Shown piece by piece: positions 1 to 39,713 of a stretch of DNA of 64,000 nt. How positions within the stretch are numbered: position 1 is the stretch's first letter; each line of letters starts with the position of its first letter. The position numbers and the translations under genes are program-made. A model generated the notes under the pieces. It searched no databases. It saw nothing but the letters and a program-made list of their open reading frames with translations, and was not told the origin of the DNA. Source of the DNA: Salinigranum halophilum (GTDB taxonomy: Archaea > Halobacteriota > Halobacteria > Halobacteriales > Haloferacaceae); NCBI RefSeq assembly GCF_007004735.1, contig NZ_ML660182.1, positions 186,001 to 250,000 of the forward strand, in the 5' to 3' direction.

Positions 1-243
1 CTGACGTTCGACCCCGACCGCTGGCGGGAGACGAAGCCCGCCGAGGTCGCCGCGTACTTCCCGTTCGGAGCGGGACCGCGCGCGTGTATCGGGCGACAGT
101 TGGCCATCGTCGAGGCGAAGCTCATCCTCGTGACGCTGTTCGCCGAGTGGGACGTCGCAGTCACCACCGACGAGCTGCCGCGGCGGGCGGCCATCACGAT
201 GCAGCCGACGGAGCCGGTTCCGGCCGTGGTCCGCCGCCGGTGA
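1..243 (+). CDS. Cytochrome P450, C-terminal fragment (5' end outside window)
   Basis: This is the last 80 residues of a cytochrome P450, a heme-thiolate monooxygenase; the rest lies upstream of the window. The heme-binding signature FGAGPRACIG is visible at fragment residues 22-31, and Cys29 (codon at 85-87) would be the axial heme ligand. The following helix (RQLAIVEAKLILVTLFAEW) is the usual L-helix. The gene ends with TGA at 241-243, three bases before the end of a convergent DUF371 gene. The substrate and redox partner cannot be judged from this piece. Confidence 0.93.
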   Translation: MTFDPDRWRETKPAEVAAYFPFGAGPRACIGRQLAIVEAKLILVTLFAEWDVAVTTDELPRRAAITMQPTEPVPAVVRRR

Positions 244-245
244 GT

Positions 246-674
246 TCACTCGCGCTCGTCGGCGTCGACCCGGAGGGTGAACACGAGGTCGGCTCCCGCT
301 CGAAGCGCGTCGACCATCTCCCGGTCGAAGCCGGCGGCGGCGTGGTCGGCATCGACCAGCACCGTCCGGTCGTCGACGTAGTCGCTCGTCCGGGCGACGG
401 CCGAACGGTCGTTCTCGAACGTCAGGTCCGGATGTCCGCGCCCCTCGACGGTCTGGACGTGGTCGCCGACCCTGACTTCGCAGGTGATTCGGGCGTCCGC
501 TGACCGACACGCCTCGACGAACGCGGGGTCGAAGTCCGCGGGGGTTCGGTCGGCTTCCACCGCGAGAATACAGTCGCCCGCGGGGGTGAGCCAGTCGTCT
601 GTCGTCACCTCGAACGTGCTCGCGTGCTCGGCGCGGACGTTGTCGTGTCCCCGTGCGTGGATGACCTCTCTCAT
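246..674 (-). CDS. DUF371 family protein
   Basis: The 142-residue protein begins MREVIHARGHDNVRAEH and contains TPAGDCILAV, a pattern I associate with the archaeal DUF371 family, whose function is unknown. It is acidic and has no signal peptide or membrane segment, so it should be cytoplasmic. I chose the ATG at 674 because homologous proteins start at this Met; a GTG nine codons upstream (701) would only add a weak extension. It converges on the P450 gene. A TATA-like stretch on the same strand near 780-790 could be its promoter, leaving a leader of several tens of bases. Confidence 0.85.
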   Translation of the reverse strand: MREVIHARGHDNVRAEHASTFEVTTDDWLTPAGDCILAVEADRTPADFDPAFVEACRSADARITCEVRVGDHVQTVEGRGHPDLTFENDRSAVARTSDYVDDRTVLVDADHAAAGFDREMVDALRAGADLVFTLRVDADERE

Positions 675-1030
675 GGCTGGGCCTGGCGGACCGACGGACA
701 AGTCGACATCGGTTCGCCACCGCCGAATCGGCCGCTCCTGTCGCTGTACCGTCCATTTCTGCCGGCCCGGTGCCGCGATTATTTATATACGTAGTGAAAT
801 CCGTGGGAACGACACACACGGGCGTTTCGAGCGGTATGACAGCGGTTTTCACACGTTTCACCACCGAAGTTTTTATATGGTAACCGATTGTATCTGTAAG
901 TACCTGAACGCCACCGGCGTTCCGGCGGCACAGCACGCAGAATGATCGGGAGTTCTCTTACACGGCCGGTCGCACTCATCCGCGCAGCCGCCGCGCTCGG
1001 CAGGGTGATGGTACAGAGGTTCGATTACGC
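675..1030. other. Intergenic region with two AT-rich boxes, a hairpin and a possible short ORF
   Basis: These 356 bases separate two divergent genes. Two TATA-like stretches stand out of the GC-rich background: about 779-790 and 870-880. A perfect 7-bp inverted repeat with a 3-base loop lies at 906-922. A 31-codon frame from ATG 942 ends with a TAA that overlaps the ATG at 1031 of the next gene. I see no convincing larger gene here. The distance from the 870-880 box to the downstream start implies a leader of roughly 130 bases, which is long for a haloarchaeon. Confidence 0.6.
870..880 (+). promoter_or_regulatory. TATA-like promoter for the coiled-coil protein gene
   Basis: The stretch tttttatatgg follows a purine-rich element (ccgaag) that could be the TFB recognition element. 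Transcription would start near 900-905, just before the hairpin at 906-922, so the hairpin would sit at the 5' end of the mRNA. Confidence 0.5.
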
Positions 1031-1954
1031 ATGGTAACAAAACAAGAAGTCCTCGAAGAATTCGATGTCAACGAGCTCGACACAGCGAACAACGTCGAGC
1101 TGTCCGATGAAAAGCTCGAAAACGGTTCTAAAGGTCAGCTCATCAAGCTCGCAGGCCAGCTGCGAGACCGACGAAACGAGCTGAACCAGATGGCCTCGGA
1201 GCGCGCGTCCAAGCGCGACGACCTGAACGCCAAGACGCGCGAGAAGGTCGACGAAGCCCAACAGCACCGCGAGAAGCGCGACGAGCTCAACGAACAGGTC
1301 CAAGAGCACAAGCAGAGCCGCAACGAGCTCAACGCGAACGCCAACGAGCTGTTCGACCAGGTCGAGGAGATGAAGAGCGACCTGGAACTGGACGACGGTA
1401 CGGACATCGAGGAACTCGAAGAGGAAATCGAGAAACTCGAGTTCCGTCAGCAGACGGAGGTCCTCTCCACCGAGGACGAGCGCGAACTCATCGAGAAGAT
1501 CGAGAACAAGCGCAAAGAGCTCAAACAGCGCAAGGAGAAGGTCGAAGACTCGGGCGAGCTCGAGGAGCTCATCGAGGAAGCTGAGTCAGTCCGCTCGGAG
1601 GCCTCCCAGCACCACCAGAAGGTCACGGAGCTGGCCGACGAGGCCCAAGAGCACCACAACCAGATGATCGAGGCCTACCGCGCGGCCGACGAGATCCGCG
1701 ACAAGGCCGACGAGATGCACGAGCTCTTCGTCGAGGCACAGGAGGCGGCTGACCGTCACCACGAGGACTTCGTCCGCGTCCAGAAGCGCCTGCGCGAACT
1801 GGACAAAGAAGAGGAAGCAGAGCGCAAAGACGAGCGCGCCGAACAGCGCGAGAAGGCGAAAGAAGAGGCCGAGGAGATCTACCAGCAGTTCAAGGAAGGC
1901 GAGACGCTGGACACCGAGGACCTCATGAAGCTGCAGAAGGCCGGTCTGCTCTAA
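1031..1954 (+). CDS. Large coiled-coil protein (COG1340-like)
   Basis: The 307-residue protein is very rich in Glu, Lys, Arg and Gln and is almost entirely predicted long helix with heptad-like spacing from about residue 25 to 290. There is no signal peptide or membrane segment. It resembles the archaeal coiled-coil family (COG1340) sometimes mislabelled phosphoserine phosphatase; I see no HAD catalytic motif (DxDxT), so that name would be wrong. Its codon usage, rich in AAG and GAG, looks like that of a highly expressed gene. The ATG at 1031 is preceded by a long leader with a hairpin. A structural or scaffolding role is only inferred from the coiled coil. Confidence 0.85.
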   Translation: MVTKQEVLEEFDVNELDTANNVELSDEKLENGSKGQLIKLAGQLRDRRNELNQMASERASKRDDLNAKTREKVDEAQQHREKRDELNEQVQEHKQSRNELNANANELFDQVEEMKSDLELDDGTDIEELEEEIEKLEFRQQTEVLSTEDERELIEKIENKRKELKQRKEKVEDSGELEELIEEAESVRSEASQHHQKVTELADEAQEHHNQMIEAYRAADEIRDKADEMHELFVEAQEAADRHHEDFVRVQKRLRELDKEEEAERKDERAEQREKAKEEAEEIYQQFKEGETLDTEDLMKLQKAGLL

Positions 1955-2020
1955 GTTCGGTTCGAGTCTACGAGTTTCTCACTGTCTTTTTACCAGACGC
2001 GCCCTGACCCCCGTACAGCC

Positions 2021-3028
2021 ATGAGTGAACGTTCACGAACCGTCGTCACCGGAGGTGCCGTCCTCTCCGCGGCAGCCGTCGCGGCCGTCGTCGGCTGGGT
2101 ACTCCTCGTCGAGTTCCCGGCCGACCTCGCAGAGTTGGTCGGTGTCCTCCTCGTCATCGGCCTCGTCGTCGTCGCGGTTCGCTTCGCCGGCCGCGCCGTG
2201 AGCGCCCGCTACCCCGACTACGACGTGGCCGAGGTCGCCGTCACCGGCCCGATCTCCCGGGATGGCGGCCCCGGACCACTCCCCACGGGCACGCGGGGCA
2301 CCCCTGCCGACGACATCGTCGAACAGATCGAGCGTGCGGACGAAGACGACGCGGCCGACGGCCTCCTCGTCAAACTGAACACGCCCGGTGGCGAGGTCGT
2401 TCCCAGTGACGACATCCGCCGCGCGGCGATGAACTTCGACGGGCCGACGCTCGCGTACGCGACCGACACCTGCGCCAGCGGCGGCTACTGGATCGCCAGC
2501 GGCTGTGACGAACTCTGGGCGCGCGACGCCTCCATCGTGGGCAGCATCGGCGTCATCGGCTCACGGGTGAACGTCTCCGACCTCGCCGACAGGCTGGGAA
2601 TCTCCTACGAGCGGTTCGCCGCCGGCCAGTACAAGGACGCCGGCGTCGCCCTCAAGGAGATGGACGACGACGAGCGAGCCTATCTGCAAGGCATCATCGA
2701 CGATTTCTACGACAACTTCGTCGAACGCGTCGCCGAGGGTCGCGACATGGACGAGGCGGCCGTCCGCGACACCGAGGCGCGCGTGTTCGTCGGGACCGAC
2801 GCCCACGAGCGCGGCCTCGTCGACGGCCTCGGTGCCCGAGACGCGGTCGAAGAACGCCTCGCGGACCTGCTCGAGCGGGACGAAGTGAGCGTCGAGGAGT
2901 TCACGCCACAGCAGTCGCTCGCAGCGCGCCTGCGCGGCGGTGCCGAGTCGGTCGCCTACGCGCTCGGTGCCGGCGTCGCCGGTCGGGTCGTCGGCGACAC
3001 CGAAGAGCCGCTGAAACTCCGGTTCTGA
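2021..3028 (+). CDS. S49 family signal-peptide-peptidase-like protease (SppA type)
   Basis: This 335-residue membrane-anchored serine peptidase should degrade residual signal peptides or membrane protein fragments. Two hydrophobic segments occupy about residues 9-30 and 36-55, followed by the protease domain. The catalytic serine is Ser153 in CASGGYW and the general base is Lys205 in QYKDAG, the Ser-Lys dyad of the S49 family. The VKLNTPGGEV and IVGSIGVI stretches are also typical. A T-rich box (ctttttacc, about 1986-1992) lies about 30 bases before the ATG, consistent with a nearly leaderless transcript of its own. Confidence 0.9.
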   Translation: MSERSRTVVTGGAVLSAAAVAAVVGWVLLVEFPADLAELVGVLLVIGLVVVAVRFAGRAVSARYPDYDVAEVAVTGPISRDGGPGPLPTGTRGTPADDIVEQIERADEDDAADGLLVKLNTPGGEVVPSDDIRRAAMNFDGPTLAYATDTCASGGYWIASGCDELWARDASIVGSIGVIGSRVNVSDLADRLGISYERFAAGQYKDAGVALKEMDDDERAYLQGIIDDFYDNFVERVAEGRDMDEAAVRDTEARVFVGTDAHERGLVDGLGARDAVEERLADLLERDEVSVEEFTPQQSLAARLRGGAESVAYALGAGVAGRVVGDTEEPLKLRF

Positions 3029-3109
3029 GCACGCGGCCGCTGTCGGTGACAGTCCTCCCATCACCTGACAGCGACCAGGTATATGTTGGTCGGTGACGGA
3101 GCGGTGTGT

Positions 3110-3838
3110 ATGACCTCCACGGGCCCGGCTGGTTCGCTCTCGGAGACCGAGTTCACGCGCACACAGCAGGTCCGTGGACTCGCCCTGCTCGGGGCGTTCG
3201 TTGGCCTCCGCGCGCTCTTCGCCCGGGCCTGGGCTCGGTACTTTCCCGGCGGGTACAGTACCGATCCGGCGTTCCTCGCGTTCCTCGCGTTCCTCGCCGG
3301 TATCTTCCTCCTCCTCTCTGTCGGTCTGGTCTACCTCGGTTTCACGCGCTGGGTCGGCGTCGACCTCCGTGCGTGGTGGGTCGACCGACGACGGGTGCGG
3401 GGGGACCTCCGCTGGAGCCTCGTGGGTATCGTCGCCGTCCTCGTCGTCACGGTGGCGAGCGTGCTCGTACTCACGGCGTTCGTCCCGTCGCTGGCCCCAC
3501 CCGGCCCGACGGCGGCCGACCCTGGTCCACCCGGGGCCAGCGGTGCGTCGACCACACCCCTCGCGGTGACGCTCCTGCTCGGCTGGTTCTTCGGATTCGC
3601 CATCGCCGCGTTCCAAGAGGAGACGCTCTTCCGAGGGTTCCTCCAGCGCCTCCTCGAGACGCGGTACGGCCGCGGGCCGGCTATCGTCGGGCAAGCGGTC
3701 GTGTTCACCCTCGCGCACCTCGGGTACTACCCCGTCTCGTCGTGGCCGCTCCTCGTCGTCGGCCTCGTCACCGGTTGGCTGGTCGACCGGCGTGGGACGC
3801 TCCTCGCCGCCGGCATCGCACACGGCTTCGTCGGCTGA
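3110..3838 (+). CDS. CPBP (CAAX-protease/bacteriocin-processing) family membrane protease
   Basis: The 242-residue polytopic membrane protein has the CPBP metalloprotease motifs: Glu170-Glu171 and Arg175 in QEETLFRGF, His203 in FTLAHLGYY, and a final His238 in GIAHGFVG. The family includes Rce1-like proteases; the substrate here is unknown. I chose ATG 3110 over the in-frame ATG 3083 because a TATA-like box (ggtatatg, about 3078-3085) overlaps the earlier codon. The reading frame stops only four residues after His238, so the last helix is shorter than usual. A 9-bp unit repeated three times (about 3271-3297) encodes AFLAFLAFLA within one transmembrane helix. Confidence 0.85.
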   Translation: MTSTGPAGSLSETEFTRTQQVRGLALLGAFVGLRALFARAWARYFPGGYSTDPAFLAFLAFLAGIFLLLSVGLVYLGFTRWVGVDLRAWWVDRRRVRGDLRWSLVGIVAVLVVTVASVLVLTAFVPSLAPPGPTAADPGPPGASGASTTPLAVTLLLGWFFGFAIAAFQEETLFRGFLQRLLETRYGRGPAIVGQAVVFTLAHLGYYPVSSWPLLVVGLVTGWLVDRRGTLLAAGIAHGFVG

Positions 3839-34601: not shown

Positions 34602-35381
34602 ATGGCCGCACACACCAGCGTCGACCCCGAGTCCGCGCTCGACCGCCTTGTCGACGAGGGCGTCGTCGAAGCACACGCCGACGGGTCGCTGACGACCACA
34701 GAGGCGTACGAGCGGACCCGCGTCGTCTACCACGATACGTACGGGAACGCGGACGAAGCGACCGTCGTTCAGGCGCTCTCGGAGGTCTTCGACGTCGACC
34801 GGGAGGCCGTCGCGGCGTACGTCGACGAACACGACGTCGGACCGGCAGACCTCGTCGCGTACCTGTCGTTACAGTCGTTTCTCGACCCGGTGCCCGACCG
34901 GGAGCTCCTCGCGACGATGGCCGCCCTCGTCGTTGAGGTCGGACCGGGCTCGCCGGTCCCCGGCCAACTCGACGAACTCGACGACGACAGCTACGAGGCG
35001 TTCCTCGCCGAACATCCCGACGCCGTGCTGACGGTGTGGAAGACGGGCTGTCATCCCTGCGACGCGATGAAGGACGACCTCGACGAGATCCTCGGTCGCG
35101 TCCCGGACGGCGTCGCCGTCGCCGGCCTCGACGGTGAGTCGATCCCGTCGTTCCGACTCGAGTACGGGGTCGACTCAGCGCCGGCCGTCCTCGCGTTCAG
35201 CGACGGCACTCTCGTCGAGTCGCTCACCGGTCGCCGGTCGCCCGTCGCGCTCGAACAGTTCTTCGCTGTCGTCTACGGGGACGACGACACCGTCGACCCC
35301 GTCGCCGCCGTCGAGGCGGCGGCCGACCGTGACGACGGTTCGGTGGAGTTCGTCGACGCCGACGCCGACGTCGACGAGTAA
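34602..35381 (+). CDS. Thioredoxin-fold protein with CHPC motif, last gene of the liv operon
   Basis: The 259-residue cytoplasmic protein has an N-terminal helical domain (residues 1-125, SVDPESALDRLVDEGVVEAH, a repeated 'DRxAVxxYVDEH' style) and a thioredoxin-like domain from about residue 128. The redox motif is VWKTGCHPCDAMKDDL with Cys150 and Cys153; a cis-Pro follows in GVDSAPAVLAF. There is no signal peptide, so it does not act on the exported binding protein. Its ATG is two bases after the livF stop, indicating cotranscription, but its role in transport or in amino-acid metabolism is unknown. Confidence 0.85.
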   Translation: MAAHTSVDPESALDRLVDEGVVEAHADGSLTTTEAYERTRVVYHDTYGNADEATVVQALSEVFDVDREAVAAYVDEHDVGPADLVAYLSLQSFLDPVPDRELLATMAALVVEVGPGSPVPGQLDELDDDSYEAFLAEHPDAVLTVWKTGCHPCDAMKDDLDEILGRVPDGVAVAGLDGESIPSFRLEYGVDSAPAVLAFSDGTLVESLTGRRSPVALEQFFAVVYGDDDTVDPVAAVEAAADRDDGSVEFVDADADVDE

Positions 35382-35476: not shown

Positions 35477-35878
35477 TCAGCTCGTCTCCGGCACGCCCGT
35501 GACCATCACGGGGCGACCCGCGTTGAGGATGACCGTCTGGGTGACGCTCCCGAACAGGGCCTTGCCGGCCGGCGAGCGCTTTCGCCCCCCGATGACGATG
35601 AGGTCGGCGTCGGCCTCGTCGCCGGCGTCGACGATGGCCTCCGCGGGGTCGCCGCTCGACTCCGTCACGTCGAACTCGATGCCGGCCTCGTCGAGGACGT
35701 CACCGGCTGCTCTGACGGGGGCGAGCTGTGTCGCCGAGGCACCGCTCGGGTTGTCGGTGAAGCTGTGGATGAGCGTGACACGCTTCTCCGAGCCATCGCC
35801 CGGCATCCCGGCGACTTCCTCGGCGCAGAGCTTCGCGTGGTCCTCGTCCTCGTCGACCCCGATAATGACGTGGTACAT
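35477..35878 (-). CDS. Universal stress protein (UspA family)
   Basis: The 133-residue protein begins MYHVIIGVDEDEDHAKL and ends with the ATP-binding-type motif VIGGRKRSPAGKALFGSVTQTVI, consistent with the nucleotide-binding branch of the Usp fold. It should be a cytoplasmic dimer. Haloarchaea encode dozens of Usp proteins, often next to transporters; here it lies tail to tail with the liv operon. The specific signal is unknown. Confidence 0.9.
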   Translation of the reverse strand: MYHVIIGVDEDEDHAKLCAEEVAGMPGDGSEKRVTLIHSFTDNPSGASATQLAPVRAAGDVLDEAGIEFDVTESSGDPAEAIVDAGDEADADLIVIGGRKRSPAGKALFGSVTQTVILNAGRPVMVTGVPETS

Positions 35879-35937: not shown

Positions 35938-36243
35938 TTACTCGATGTCGTCGCGTCCGACGGCGTCGACGTCGTCGACGAACTCCGAGACAGCGACGAC
36001 GAACAGGAGCGGGATTCCGAGGACGACGGCGACAGTGAGACCGCCGTAGAGTCCGAAGCCAATCGCCGTCGGCGGAAGCTCGAAGACGAAGAACAGCGCC
36101 GGTGCCGACGGGTCGTCGACCGCGACGGTGAACAGCACGCCCATGACTGCCGCGATTCCGACCAGGACGGCGTAGAGGACGACGACGAACCGTCGGCCCC
36201 CGAATCCGTCGCCACCGTCGGCTGTCGACTCGGTGGGTGTCAC
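35938..36243 (-). CDS. Small membrane protein of the cytochrome-oxidase locus ('cox cluster' type)
   Basis: The 101-residue protein has two transmembrane segments (about residues 20-43 and 62-86) with a FGGRRFVVVLYAVLVGIAAVMG start that resembles small proteins annotated as 'cox cluster protein' in haloarchaea. The start is GTG 36243. It may assist assembly or stability of the terminal oxidase, but this is inferred from position, 0.65 kb from coxA. A divergent tiny membrane ORF begins 94 bases away. Confidence 0.7.
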   Translation of the reverse strand: MTPTESTADGGDGFGGRRFVVVLYAVLVGIAAVMGVLFTVAVDDPSAPALFFVFELPPTAIGFGLYGGLTVAVVLGIPLLFVVAVSEFVDDVDAVGRDDIE

Positions 36244-36307: not shown

Positions 36308-36316
36308 CCTTTACTC
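36308..36316 (+). promoter_or_regulatory. TATA-like box of the 27-residue membrane ORF
   Basis: The box cctttactc lies 21-29 bases before the ATG at 36337, matching leaderless spacing and supporting expression of the tiny ORF that follows. Confidence 0.45.
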
Positions 36317-36336: not shown

Positions 36337-36420
36337 ATGTCGGATAAGGACCTTCTCGCGCTCGTCCTCGGTGGGGTCGCGCTCCTCATGTTCGCGACAG
36401 GAATCATCCTCGCGGTCTGA
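36337..36420 (+). CDS. 27-residue single-helix membrane protein
   Basis: The predicted peptide starts MSDKDLLALVLGGVALLMFA and is a charged hexapeptide followed by one clean transmembrane helix to the stop. It uses high-GC codons like its neighbours and has a well-placed TATA-like box. Heme-copper oxidases of the ba3 type carry a similar single-helix subunit (CbaD/subunit IIa), so an oxidase accessory subunit is a reasonable guess. Its size limits confidence; conservation in other haloarchaea would settle it. Confidence 0.6.
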   Translation: MSDKDLLALVLGGVALLMFATGIILAV

Positions 36421-36893
36421 GACGACGACTCACTGTGACGGTGTCTCCGCGTCGTGTTCGACCCGCGCCAACACTCGTCCGGGGACGTACCCGACGAACG
36501 GACGCACGAGGTGTCAGTACACCTCGAACTACCACGCGGCGACCGGGTCGGGCCCTGCGGTCCGCGTCTCGTCGGTGACGGGTGTCCGCTCCTCGCCGTA
36601 CGGACCGAACGAGAGGCCGGCGATGGTTTTTGCGTATCCACGAGGTCCGGGGTGGTCGACCGCCAGCACCGCCTCGTACCGTAGCCCGGTGGGTATCCCG
36701 GCCCCGTCGGTGACCGGCAACGGTCCGACGGCTCGGCCGGGACGCGTCGTGTGCACGTGGTCTCACCGTCCGAACGGCGGGAGCCGGCGCGAAGTACTCG
36801 TGAACTGGGCTCGCGAGTCGAGAGTCGTGACTCGGACCCGGTGAGGACGAACCGTAACGCGGGCGCGAAAAGTGTCGGGAGTCGTGTCGCGTC
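36421..36893. other. Gap downstream of coxA holding one degraded-looking reading frame
   Basis: These 473 bases between the 27-residue ORF and the coxA stop contain no intact gene of normal length. The only coding-like signal is on the minus strand (36529-36833), interrupted by TGA at 36763-36765. Plus-strand frames here are Arg/Ser rich and look like shadows. Confidence 0.55.
36529..36833 (-). pseudogene. Interrupted reading frame downstream of coxA
   Basis: From GTG 36756 a 75-residue frame contains PLPVTDGAGIPTGLRYEAVL and FGPYGEERTPVTDETRTAG, with about 80% G/C at third codon positions and an acidic, haloarchaeal composition. The same frame continues upstream (VRVTTLDSRAQFTSTSRRLP, from about 36833) but is cut by TGA at 36763-36765, and no ATG/GTG start precedes it. 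I read this as a formerly longer gene with an internal stop and a lost start. A functional short gene starting at 36756 is the alternative. No function is recognisable. Confidence 0.4.
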
Positions 36894-38741
36894 TCAGGCG
36901 TCGTCGGCTTCCGTGTCGACGTCAGCGTCGCCGTCGACCGCCCCGCCGTCGGTCGCGACTTCGAGTTCCTCCTCGCCGCCGTCGGCGATGGCCGTCTCGA
37001 GCTTGCGCTCGTACCACTGCCACTCAGCGGTCTCGAGGCCGTAATCCTTGAGATTCCACGGGTCGCCGTCTTCGACCTTCGGGCCCTCGAGCCAGGAGTT
37101 GACGAAGTTCCAGAGCCAGATGAGCTGCCCGACGAAGATGATGAGCGCGCCCAGCGTGGCGACCTGGTGGAGCGTGGCGAACTCGGGGAGGTAGGTCGCA
37201 TAGCGCCGCGGCATGCCGCCGTAGCCGAGCAGGATCATCGCGATGAACGTCACGTTCGTCCCGATCATCGAGAGCCAGAAGTGTGCCTTCCCCAGGGTCT
37301 TCTGGTACATCCGCCCCGTGTAGAGCGGGAACCAGTAGTAGAGGCCCGCGAAGCCGGCGAACGCGATACAGCCCATGACGATGTAGTGGAAGTGACCGAC
37401 CACGTAGTAGGTGTCGTGGAGCACGAGGTTGACGGGAATCGAGGCGAGGAAGACGCCCGTCACGCCCCCAATGATGAAGTTGGAGACGAAGCCGATGCAG
37501 AACAGCATCGGCGTCGTCAGTCTGACCTTCCCGTTCCACAGCGTCGTGATCCAGTTGAACGTCTTGACTGCCGAGGGAATCGCGATGGCGAGCGAGACGG
37601 CCATGAACGAGGCGCGGAGGCGCGGGTCGATACCCGTCGCGAACATGTGGTGCGCCCAGACGCCGAACGAGAGCACGCCGATGGCGAGCGTCGAGTAGAC
37701 GACGAACTTGAAGCCGAACAGCCGTCGTCCCGCAAAGCGTGGCAGGACGTACGAGACGATGCCCATCGGCGGGAGCACGAGGATGTACACCTCGGGATGG
37801 CCGAAGAACCAGAAGAGGTGCTGCCAGAGGATGTAGCCGCCGTCGACGGAGAAGAACGTCGTGCCGAGGTTGCGGTCCATGAGCAGCATGATGATGGCGC
37901 TGCCGAGCAGCGGGAACGCGAAGAGGATGAGCCCCGACTGGGTGAGGATGGTCCACGAGAAGATGTCGAGGTTCGCCCAGGTCACCTCCTCGGCACGCTC
38001 GGTGAAGATGGTCGCGATGAAGTTGATCGCACCCATCGTCGCCGAGACACCGGTGAGGTGGAGCCCGAGCAGCATCAGGTCGACGCCGGCGTTGGCCTGG
38101 TTGCCCGACCCGACGCCCGACGACAGCGGCGTGTACATCGTCCACGCGGTCTGTGCCGGAATGAGGTCCGGGATGGGGAAGAAGCCGGCCCAGATGAGCA
38201 GCGCACCGGGCGGGAGGAGCCAGAAGGCGATGGCGTTGATGCGCGGGAACGCCATGTCGTCCGCGTCGATGATGAGCGGGACGAGGTAGTTCGCAAAGGC
38301 TGCGATGATGGGCGTTCCGAACAGGAACAGCATCGTGATGCCGTGGCTCGTGAGCATCGAGTTGTAGAACGTGTTCGAGATGAGGGTCATGCCGGGGTCG
38401 GCGAGTTCGATTCGCATCAGCGTGACCATCACCCCACCGACGACGAACGCGACGACCGCGTACGCGCCGTAGAGGATGCCGATGTCCTTGTGGTCGACCG
38501 TCGTGAGCCAGCGGATGATTCCCGCGGGCTTCTCGCGCGACACGTAGGTACTCTCGCCGCCGAAGCCGCCACCTCCGGCCAGCGGTGTGTACGAGCGCCA
38601 GTTCTCGACCCGTGCGAGCCAGACGGCGACGATGACGAGGAACACCCCCATGAGAACCGTCAATGCCAGCTGTCCACTCATCCCCGAACCGCCGGATGAC
38701 GATTGGAGAAGAGCCGACGCCAGCTGTCCGTTAGCAACCAT
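36894..38741 (-). CDS. coxA: Cytochrome c oxidase subunit I (heme-copper oxidase)
   Basis: The 615-residue subunit has about twelve to fourteen transmembrane helices and all redox-centre ligands: the low-spin heme His in MLTSHGITMLF, FGHPEVYILVLP (CuB His and the proton-path Glu), AHHMFATG (two CuB His) and HDTYYVVGHFHYI (two heme His). The Glu in GHPEVY marks an A-type oxidase. The C-terminal tail of about 35 residues is acidic. I chose ATG 38741; Met 20 residues later is an alternative. It reduces O2 and pumps protons. Subunit II with CuA is not encoded next to it. Confidence 0.95.
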   Translation of the reverse strand: MVANGQLASALLQSSSGGSGMSGQLALTVLMGVFLVIVAVWLARVENWRSYTPLAGGGGFGGESTYVSREKPAGIIRWLTTVDHKDIGILYGAYAVVAFVVGGVMVTLMRIELADPGMTLISNTFYNSMLTSHGITMLFLFGTPIIAAFANYLVPLIIDADDMAFPRINAIAFWLLPPGALLIWAGFFPIPDLIPAQTAWTMYTPLSSGVGSGNQANAGVDLMLLGLHLTGVSATMGAINFIATIFTERAEEVTWANLDIFSWTILTQSGLILFAFPLLGSAIIMLLMDRNLGTTFFSVDGGYILWQHLFWFFGHPEVYILVLPPMGIVSYVLPRFAGRRLFGFKFVVYSTLAIGVLSFGVWAHHMFATGIDPRLRASFMAVSLAIAIPSAVKTFNWITTLWNGKVRLTTPMLFCIGFVSNFIIGGVTGVFLASIPVNLVLHDTYYVVGHFHYIVMGCIAFAGFAGLYYWFPLYTGRMYQKTLGKAHFWLSMIGTNVTFIAMILLGYGGMPRRYATYLPEFATLHQVATLGALIIFVGQLIWLWNFVNSWLEGPKVEDGDPWNLKDYGLETAEWQWYERKLETAIADGGEEELEVATDGGAVDGDADVDTEADDA

Positions 38742-38921: not shown

Positions 38922-39281
38922 TTACCCGTCGGTGTCGGACCGCTCGTCGCCGGCTTCGAGCTGCGGCTCGTCCGCATCGGCCTCGGCTTCGGCTTCGAGG
39001 TCGTGCAGGGGCTTCGCGCCCGTCACCGTCGCCTGGCCCGGCAGGTAGACCGTGTAGTCCTTCTCCGCGCCCGCGATGGCCTTCCCGGAGATGTACGTCA
39101 GGATCGCCAGGAGGATGAACGGGGCGATGAGCAGGCCGAACTGGATGCCTGTCGGCAGCGTCTCGACGCCGAACGGGTTGAACACCACGAACGCGACGAT
39201 GAAGAAGAAGATGATGAACAGCGGGATGATGTTCACCACCAGGTCGAGCATCGTGTCCCGGTCGAATATCTCGTTCGCCAT
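38922..39281 (-). CDS. Small membrane protein, DUF6684-like, of the cox locus
   Basis: The 119-residue protein has two transmembrane helices (about residues 13-37 and 49-67) followed by an acidic tail. The NIIPLFIIFFFIVAFVVFNPFG stretch and the following LLIAPFILLAILTYISGKAI match small haloarchaeal proteins (DUF6684) found near cytochrome oxidase genes. It is transcribed in the same direction as coxA and just upstream of it. A role in oxidase assembly is inferred from location. Confidence 0.78.
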   Translation of the reverse strand: MANEIFDRDTMLDLVVNIIPLFIIFFFIVAFVVFNPFGVETLPTGIQFGLLIAPFILLAILTYISGKAIAGAEKDYTVYLPGQATVTGAKPLHDLEAEAEADADEPQLEAGDERSDTDG

Positions 39282-39347: not shown

Positions 39348-39713
39348 TCAGACCGCCGGGGCGTCGTCGGTGACGAAGAGCTCCCCCGCGGCCGCACCGA
39401 CGACGAGGAGTACGCCGGTGACGATGATGGCGTACCCCCGAGTGACGAGGTTCAGGTCCGTGAAGGTGAACGCCGCCCCGATTCCGAGGAGGACGACGGC
39501 GAGGACGCCGAGCGCCCGCCACGGTGACTCGACGTAGCCTGCCTCCTGCAGGATGCCCGAGACGCTGCCGCAGAAGAGGATGAGCCCGCCGACCGAGAGG
39601 GGAAACAGGTCGAAGAGGATGCCCAGTTCGGCGATAGGAATCCCCAGCGCGATGAATATCGGCCACGGGCTGGCCATCCGGTACTGCTCTGAGAGCCCCG
39701 GTTGCTCGTCCAT
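39348..39713 (-). CDS. Small membrane protein, DUF7541-like, of the cox locus
   Basis: The 121-residue protein begins MDEQPGLSEQYRMASPWPIF and has three or four transmembrane helices (about residues 16-34, 38-55, 65-82, 90-112). The short Gln/Tyr-containing N-terminal motif before the first helix is typical of a haloarchaeal family that accompanies oxidase genes. I chose ATG 39713 at the conserved N terminus. It is 66 bases upstream of the DUF6684-like gene, so both may form one transcript leading to coxA. Confidence 0.76.
   Translation of the reverse strand: MDEQPGLSEQYRMASPWPIFIALGIPIAELGILFDLFPLSVGGLILFCGSVSGILQEAGYVESPWRALGVLAVVLLGIGAAFTFTDLNLVTRGYAIIVTGVLLVVGAAAGELFVTDDAPAV

Follow-up and report, generated by a model that had tools for sequence, protein, structure and literature searches.

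A conserved single-helix protein gene beside coxA in haloarchaea, a candidate partner of the A-type terminal oxidase

Very small subunits have been described for several oxidases. CcoM is a subunit of a cbb3 oxidase. A length of 36 amino acids is given for the Pseudomonas stutzeri protein (PMC10433244). Subunit IIa, or CbaD, of the ba3 oxidases of Thermus and Aquifex is a tiny protein with a single helix, encoded beside the oxidase gene. The pages of PMC3128077 cited here give it a length of 34 amino acids and a single helix, and state that it is often missed by annotation. Of the assembly proteins, Cox11 associates with subunit I at an early stage of oxidase assembly (PMC9145763).

Here we describe a short open reading frame (sORF) beside coxA of the haloarchaeon Salinigranum halophilum. 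The window analysed is a stretch of 64,000 nucleotides (NZ_ML660182.1, positions 186,001 to 250,000). The literature searched did not mention the encoded protein, which may still be in print.

Reading frame, promoter and conservation

The sORF consists of an ATG, 26 further codons and a TGA and encodes the 27-amino acid product MSDKDLLALVLGGVALLMFATGIILAV. The features of the locus are:

35938..36243, minus strand: DUF7520, two-helix membrane protein, divergent neighbour of the sORF (Pfam E=1.8e-25)
36309..36315, plus strand: TATA-like box CTTTACT, first base 28 nt ahead of the sORF ATG
36337..36420, plus strand: sORF, gene for a 27-amino acid single-helix protein (frame, homologues, substitution pattern, helix periodicity)
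36894..38741, minus strand: coxA, A-type COX1 (aa3-like) by Pfam, NCBIfam and PDB matches, convergent with the sORF
38922..39281, minus strand: DUF6684, two-helix protein, upstream of coxA (Pfam; co-occurs with the sORF)
39348..39713, minus strand: DUF7541, weak likeness to actinobacterial oxidase subunit IV, CtaF (PF12270 and PDB profile matches)

The initial annotation had credited the 27-residue frame with a hydrophobic helix, appropriate codon use and a correctly spaced TATA-like box, and all three were confirmed. The product contains one hydrophobic helix (residues 9-27, Kyte-Doolittle mean 2.57), 22 of the 27 codons have G or C in the third position, and the box at -28 has counterparts in homologous loci, 71 of 75 distinct ones displaying a [CTA]TTT box that starts at -28 to -31. 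Translation starts with ATG in 72 and with GTG in three of these 75 loci. This set excludes nine sORF loci that have no start codon near the model start; in two of the nine (L159 and L185) an upstream ATG gives rise to a longer N-terminus. A box at this distance corresponds to the spacing expected for leaderless haloarchaeal transcripts, and its position at -28 therefore suggests that the sORF transcript is probably leaderless.

The sORF stands alone, with the divergent DUF7520 gene on one side and the convergent 3' end of coxA on the other. As sORF and coxA are arranged tail to tail, the two do not form an operon. The intervening region contains a 75-amino acid ORF (36529-36756, minus strand). 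Three congeners show partial matches to it (59-65%), and the other 20 compared loci show none; it may be a gene of genus level or a remnant. A thioredoxin-like gene (34602-35381, plus strand) and a universal stress protein gene (35477-35878, minus strand) are often found near DUF7520 and the sORF in relatives of family f1.

The frame was matched in 23 of 40 relatives at E<=10, and in 20 of these at E<=3.6e-4. With a profile of 19 homologues (profile A1; a wider profile, A2, has 58 rows), sORF homologues at E<=1e-4 were detected in 208 of the 391 genomes and in 52 of the 86 genera of the class. A search of 392 genomes of the phylum, not broken down by class, yielded 47 matches at E<=1e-5, all of them in the order of the window. 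In the plasmid collection neither the sORF nor DUF6684 was matched. Five of six named haloarchaeal loci contain the sORF, namely those of archaeon SHRA6 (L034), Halalkalirubrum salinum (L035), QS_4_62_28 (L036), a Halococcaceae MAG (L037) and Halocatena marina (L039); the locus of Haladaptatus pallidirubidus (L038), with a COX1 of 54% identity, is without it.

The five nearest sORF sequences, that of the window included, differ pairwise at 6-10 bases, of which 4-8 are third positions and none are second positions (pS 0.18-0.37, pN 0-0.036), and no pair has more than two amino-acid changes. Such third-position-biased change among close sequences indicates that the frame is translated. Judged by its sequence evolution, the sORF is a genuine conserved haloarchaeal gene under purifying selection. 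Lack of conservation in close relatives had been named beforehand as one of the results that would speak against the proposal; the frame is conserved there, an outcome in its favour. If the frame were open by chance, or if the stretch were non-coding (a promoter or an antisense RNA, for instance), this would agree with the small size and with nothing else. The codon-position pattern of change and the occurrence in 208 of 391 genomes make this explanation extremely improbable, and the chance ORF was rejected on both grounds.

Association with coxA and with neighbouring genes

Linkage was surveyed in 80 genomes of 76 genera, which are non-independent samples. The window COX1 matches 60 of them at E<=1e-150, and 47 possess a copy of at least 66% identity. 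The sORF is present in all 47 (profile A2, E<=3.5e-8). In 45 it is located at most 4 kb downstream of coxA, and at most 700 bp in 40 of these. Convergent orientation is found in 43 of the 45 linked cases. The median gap is 162 bp (range 34-3402), with the COX1 match rather than the coxA gene defining the end point, and for one coxA copy per genome, either the linked or the nearest one. Linked sORFs of six genomes (G027, G178, G075, G111, G392 and G200) occupy the usual place despite scores of 7-23 bits with the narrower profile. The unlinked exceptions are G023, in which 318 kb separate sORF and coxA, and G083, in which the nearest copy is 18.7 kb away. In both, the sORF adjoins DUF7520, while DUF6684 has remained together with a coxA copy, at a distance from the sORF of 318 kb in G023 and of approximately 175 kb in G083.

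Stretches of approximately 3 kb on the downstream side of coxA copies were searched separately (L195 is shorter due to a contig end). Downstream of close coxA copies (L136-L195), 44 of 60 stretches harbor the sORF. The 16 others belong to twelve second coxA copies, for which the first copy of the same genome has a linked sORF, to all three copies of G083 and to the one of G023. Downstream of distant COX1 paralogues (L196-L215), a convincing sORF was found in none of 20 stretches; the candidates in L206 and L208 score weakly, with 13.8 and 10.4 bits. A partnership with every COX1 was rejected, since the twelve second coxA copies and the distant paralogues have no convincing sORF in the stretch downstream. 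Whole-genome searches revealed one clear sORF copy per genome, with a second, weak match (E=9.3e-4) in G039. The genome of the window has a second coxA (contig C2, 143348-145072), which is 80% identical to that of the window; no sORF is present in the 3 kb downstream of it.

DUF6684 (PF20389) was detected in 60 of the 80 surveyed genomes and, among 14 named controls, in Haloferax volcanii only. The sORF is carried by 58 of the 60 DUF6684-positive genomes (E<=3.4e-7) and by none of the 20 DUF6684-negative genomes at E<=0.01 (best match 0.0135), a co-occurrence with a Fisher p of 6.5e-17, uncorrected for shared ancestry. G099 and G257 contain DUF6684 together with weak sORF candidates beside a COX1 (13.8 and 10.4 bits). 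DUF7520, present in 55 of 80 genomes, follows the sORF less strictly than DUF6684.

The DUF7541 protein may be a remote version of the actinobacterial oxidase subunit IV (CtaF). Thirteen of 30 members match the subunit IV family PF12270 at E<=1 (best 8.9e-4); the window protein scores 13.7-16.5 bits, which is below the cut-off of 26.9. The members share the pattern SPWP...GGLLLF...SVxGI..ESGY. A DUF7541 profile detected subunit IV chains in the PDB at E values of 0.027, 0.14 and 6.7, with the unrelated enzyme IR104 scoring better (0.0041), and the single window sequence had no PDB match. The structural model gave nothing at E<=0.001 with Foldseek. VIA-align retrieved the actinobacterial oxidase-supercomplex chains 7q21_K, 8hcr_H and 6hwh_S at Z 6.7-8.3, alongside unrelated helical proteins at similar Z; these matches cover a hairpin (model residues 64-122) and not the part that is similar in sequence. 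The resemblance of DUF7541 to subunit IV weakly supports the view of this cluster as a source of accessory subunits for the oxidase. For DUF6684, one of 31 members matches PF12270 (E=0.0094), the basis of the idea of a split subunit IV. Its predicted model is poor (pLDDT 57.8), and PDB searches with its profile returned repeat-protein artefacts.

The COX1 class was checked in 22 genomes. A COX1 above 450 bits is present in 13 of 14 sORF carriers, a number that includes G099 and G257 with their weak candidates, and in none of eight non-carriers. The sORF thus follows an oxidase class, also in genomes in which the contact with coxA has been lost. This link is not absolute because G073 has kept sORF, DUF6684 and DUF7541 with a sole COX1 of 430 bits, outside the usual class. 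G073 agrees with another explanation, in which sORF, DUF6684, DUF7541 and often DUF7520 form a small membrane module for heme/copper supply or another respiratory function and coxA is a neighbour by chance. Also in favour of this explanation are 11 genomes, G208 and ten from family f7, in which the sORF is located 13-498 bp from DUF6684, always convergent and with no coxA between them. These clusters (L246-L256) comprise sORF and DUF6684 in 11 of 11 cases, DUF7541 in nine and DUF7520 in seven, and only L248 (G192) has a nearby COX1, with 56% identity and about 2 kb away. In G012, G089 and G092, the situation is reversed, with the sORF next to coxA and no DUF6684 nearby. The distribution of the COX1 class between carriers and non-carriers, the presence of the sORF in every genome with a close coxA and the weak similarity of DUF7541 to subunit IV argue against an independent module, which we regard as unlikely but to be taken seriously.

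Type of the neighbouring oxidase

The window COX1 reaches 668.8 bits with its best NCBIfam model, TIGR02891 (CtaD_CoxA; cut-off 670.75). Its nearest solved relatives in the PDB are actinobacterial aa3 oxidases, with E values down to 8.3e-139. The top relatives are subunits 1 of mycobacterial supercomplexes. According to these matches the window COX1 is an A-type (aa3-like) and not a ba3 enzyme. The sORF had been introduced as a possible missed subunit of the archaeal oxidase by analogy to ba3-type oxidases. The idea of a missed oxidase partner is partly supported, as a gene for a single helix is conserved and associated with the coxA cluster; the ba3 analogy is not supported. HVO_0907 (coxA1) of Haloferax volcanii, the presumed orthologue of the window coxA, is listed as experimentally studied in PMC8305020.

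The genome contains five COX1 and four COX2 matches. There is no COX2 in the window, the nearest matches being at C1:147489 and C1:318398 with the sORF at C1:222337 of the same contig. Three of the four COX2s (L025-L027) have two helices, and two of these three start with an extra hydrophobic segment that is probably a signal peptide. One of them (L025, near C1:318398) has no COX1 within its 1.5 kb flanks; the gene beside it presumably encodes a fused CtaA-CtaB heme A/O synthase. At the other position (L028, near C1:147489), a distant COX1 with 102.5 bits to TIGR02891 follows a one-helix COX2, which is preceded by a 396-amino acid protein that contains two halocyanin-domain stretches and terminates in two hydrophobic segments. 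Fusions of halocyanin and IIa are described for haloarchaea in the text cited from PMC3128077. As L028 fits these fusions, it is probably the ba3 locus of the genome and would have its own fused IIa.

These data bear on the possibility that the sORF is itself the subunit IIa of a ba3-type oxidase, standing in for the missing subunit II helix. Like IIa, its product is a single helix of comparable size encoded beside an oxidase gene. In contrast to the sORF with its A-type COX1 neighbour, IIa/CbaD belongs to a B-type oxidase and its gene is located upstream of subunit II; COX1 as partner of the sORF is assigned from position. With CbaD, subunit II has a single membrane helix; L025-L027 have two besides any signal peptide, and the COX2 that pairs with the window COX1 may or may not be one of these. 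Moreover, IIa possesses a PxGT motif and a conserved Trp in the passage cited from PMC3128077, whereas the sORF product contains neither Pro nor Trp. The reading fails because the neighbouring COX1 is A-type and the likely ba3 locus, which seems to have its own IIa, is elsewhere. Together with the two-helix COX2s, the missing Pro and Trp and a window without COX2, this led us to reject it as very improbable.

Helix face and comparison with known small oxidase proteins

Conservation along the sORF helix follows a 100-degree period, and none of 20,000 permutations was as strong. The conserved face is composed of L7, L11, A15, M18, T21/G22 and L25. A single conserved face suggests that one side packs on a partner. 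We consider it likely, though by no means certain, that the sORF encodes a single-helix protein which works with the A-type terminal oxidase through one helix face and aids its assembly or stability. The gene would be expressed from a probably leaderless transcript to give a single-helix membrane protein, whose conserved face would pack against another membrane protein. The most likely candidates are COX1 and two small proteins encoded in the cluster, DUF6684 and DUF7541. In this way the helix would help to assemble or stabilise the A-type (coxA1/aa3-like) oxidase. The data demonstrate the coding frame, its purifying selection, its co-occurrence and synteny and the conserved face; the oxidase as partner and assembly or stabilisation as role are inferred. 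The 11 genomes without coxA between sORF and DUF6684, G073, the separated genes of G023 and G083 and the weak candidates of G099 and G257 speak against the partnership. The product is probably either a stoichiometric subunit or an assembly factor, which fit equally well.

A tiny hydrophobic peptide that apparently has its own promoter might also be a regulatory membrane peptide, controlling signalling or proteolysis of its neighbours, or resemble type I toxins. The single clear copy, the binding to one cluster, the class-wide occurrence and the conserved face are unlike mobile toxin peptides and render this explanation improbable.

The window peptide matched no Pfam or NCBIfam model. Among 58 sORF members, 25 touch a mycobacteriophage membrane-helix model in Pfam (best E=0.0018), a match that was judged compositional, and the best NCBIfam value was E=0.0038 (Psb34, two of 58), so that no convincing model was found. 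Searches of the PDB with sORF profiles gave best E values of 0.38 and 1.2, to a putative transmembrane protein.

A scan of bacterial COX1 loci with the sORF profile retrieved a small ORF directly after coxA of a Massilia MAG (E=0.038 over 25,145 ORFs). This ORF (L050:4274-4375) has 34 amino acids from its ATG, starts about 60 bases past the coxA stop and encodes one helix. It belongs to NF038351 (cyt_ox_assem_30, 'cytochrome oxidase small assembly protein'; 30.1 bits, E=3.1e-7). An iterated profile found 23 related ORFs in 74 bacterial coxA loci, confirmed by NCBIfam for L050 only. Profile comparison of the sORF with these bacterial small assembly ORFs resulted in a probability of 72-79%, and none of 150 column shuffles was as good. 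The NF038351 model itself matched two of the 58 sORF members at E<=10 (best E=0.15), below its cut-off of 27.5 bits. As the direct match fails, the sORF is not a member of NF038351. Both helices are encoded just 3' of coxA. The NF038351 gene has the same orientation as coxA and directly precedes cox11 in L049 and L050, whereas the sORF is on the opposite strand.

The anchor helix of Cox11/CtaG (PF04442) was matched by the sORF profile with a probability of 81-88%. It is the best non-self match of the sORF among 97 membrane-helix windows (24.1, next 17.2), all from loci fetched around oxidase genes or the sORF cluster, including COX1 loci of the viral collection. The Cox11 identity of the anchor profile was confirmed with Pfam on two members. 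The Cox11 score was reached by one of 150 column shuffles and by none of 150 face-preserving shuffles, and the latter also holds true for the small assembly protein. Profiles of the bacterial small assembly protein and of the Cox11 anchor match each other with a probability of 74%, and these two may have a common origin. The sORF and Cox11 helices share an M-x-x-x-G pattern. The sORF product contains no Cys and lacks the copper-binding CXC domain that Cox11 exposes outside the membrane. Because the match spans just 18-23 membrane residues, the likeness of sORF and Cox11 is indistinguishable from convergence. The sORF product could be imagined as a free-standing archaeal counterpart of the Cox11 anchor, which docks to COX1 by its conserved M-x-x-x-G face and, although it has no copper domain, directs the assembly of heme a3/CuB; DUF6684 and DUF7541 would then be a split archaeal version of actinobacterial subunit IV; we consider this specific scheme doubtful at best.

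Returning to the oxidase partnership, the Cox11 anchor and the small assembly protein are the most similar of the helices compared, which lets an assembly role compete with a structural one. In size, the sORF product is also comparable to CcoM, a tiny oxidase-type subunit. The sORF family occurs in more than half of the genera of its class without a convincing Pfam or NCBIfam model, and it offers a deletable candidate for a missing small part of the archaeal aa3 oxidase. It thereby makes testable whether archaeal A-type oxidases use a partner of one helix, in the manner of subunit IIa in the B-type enzymes.
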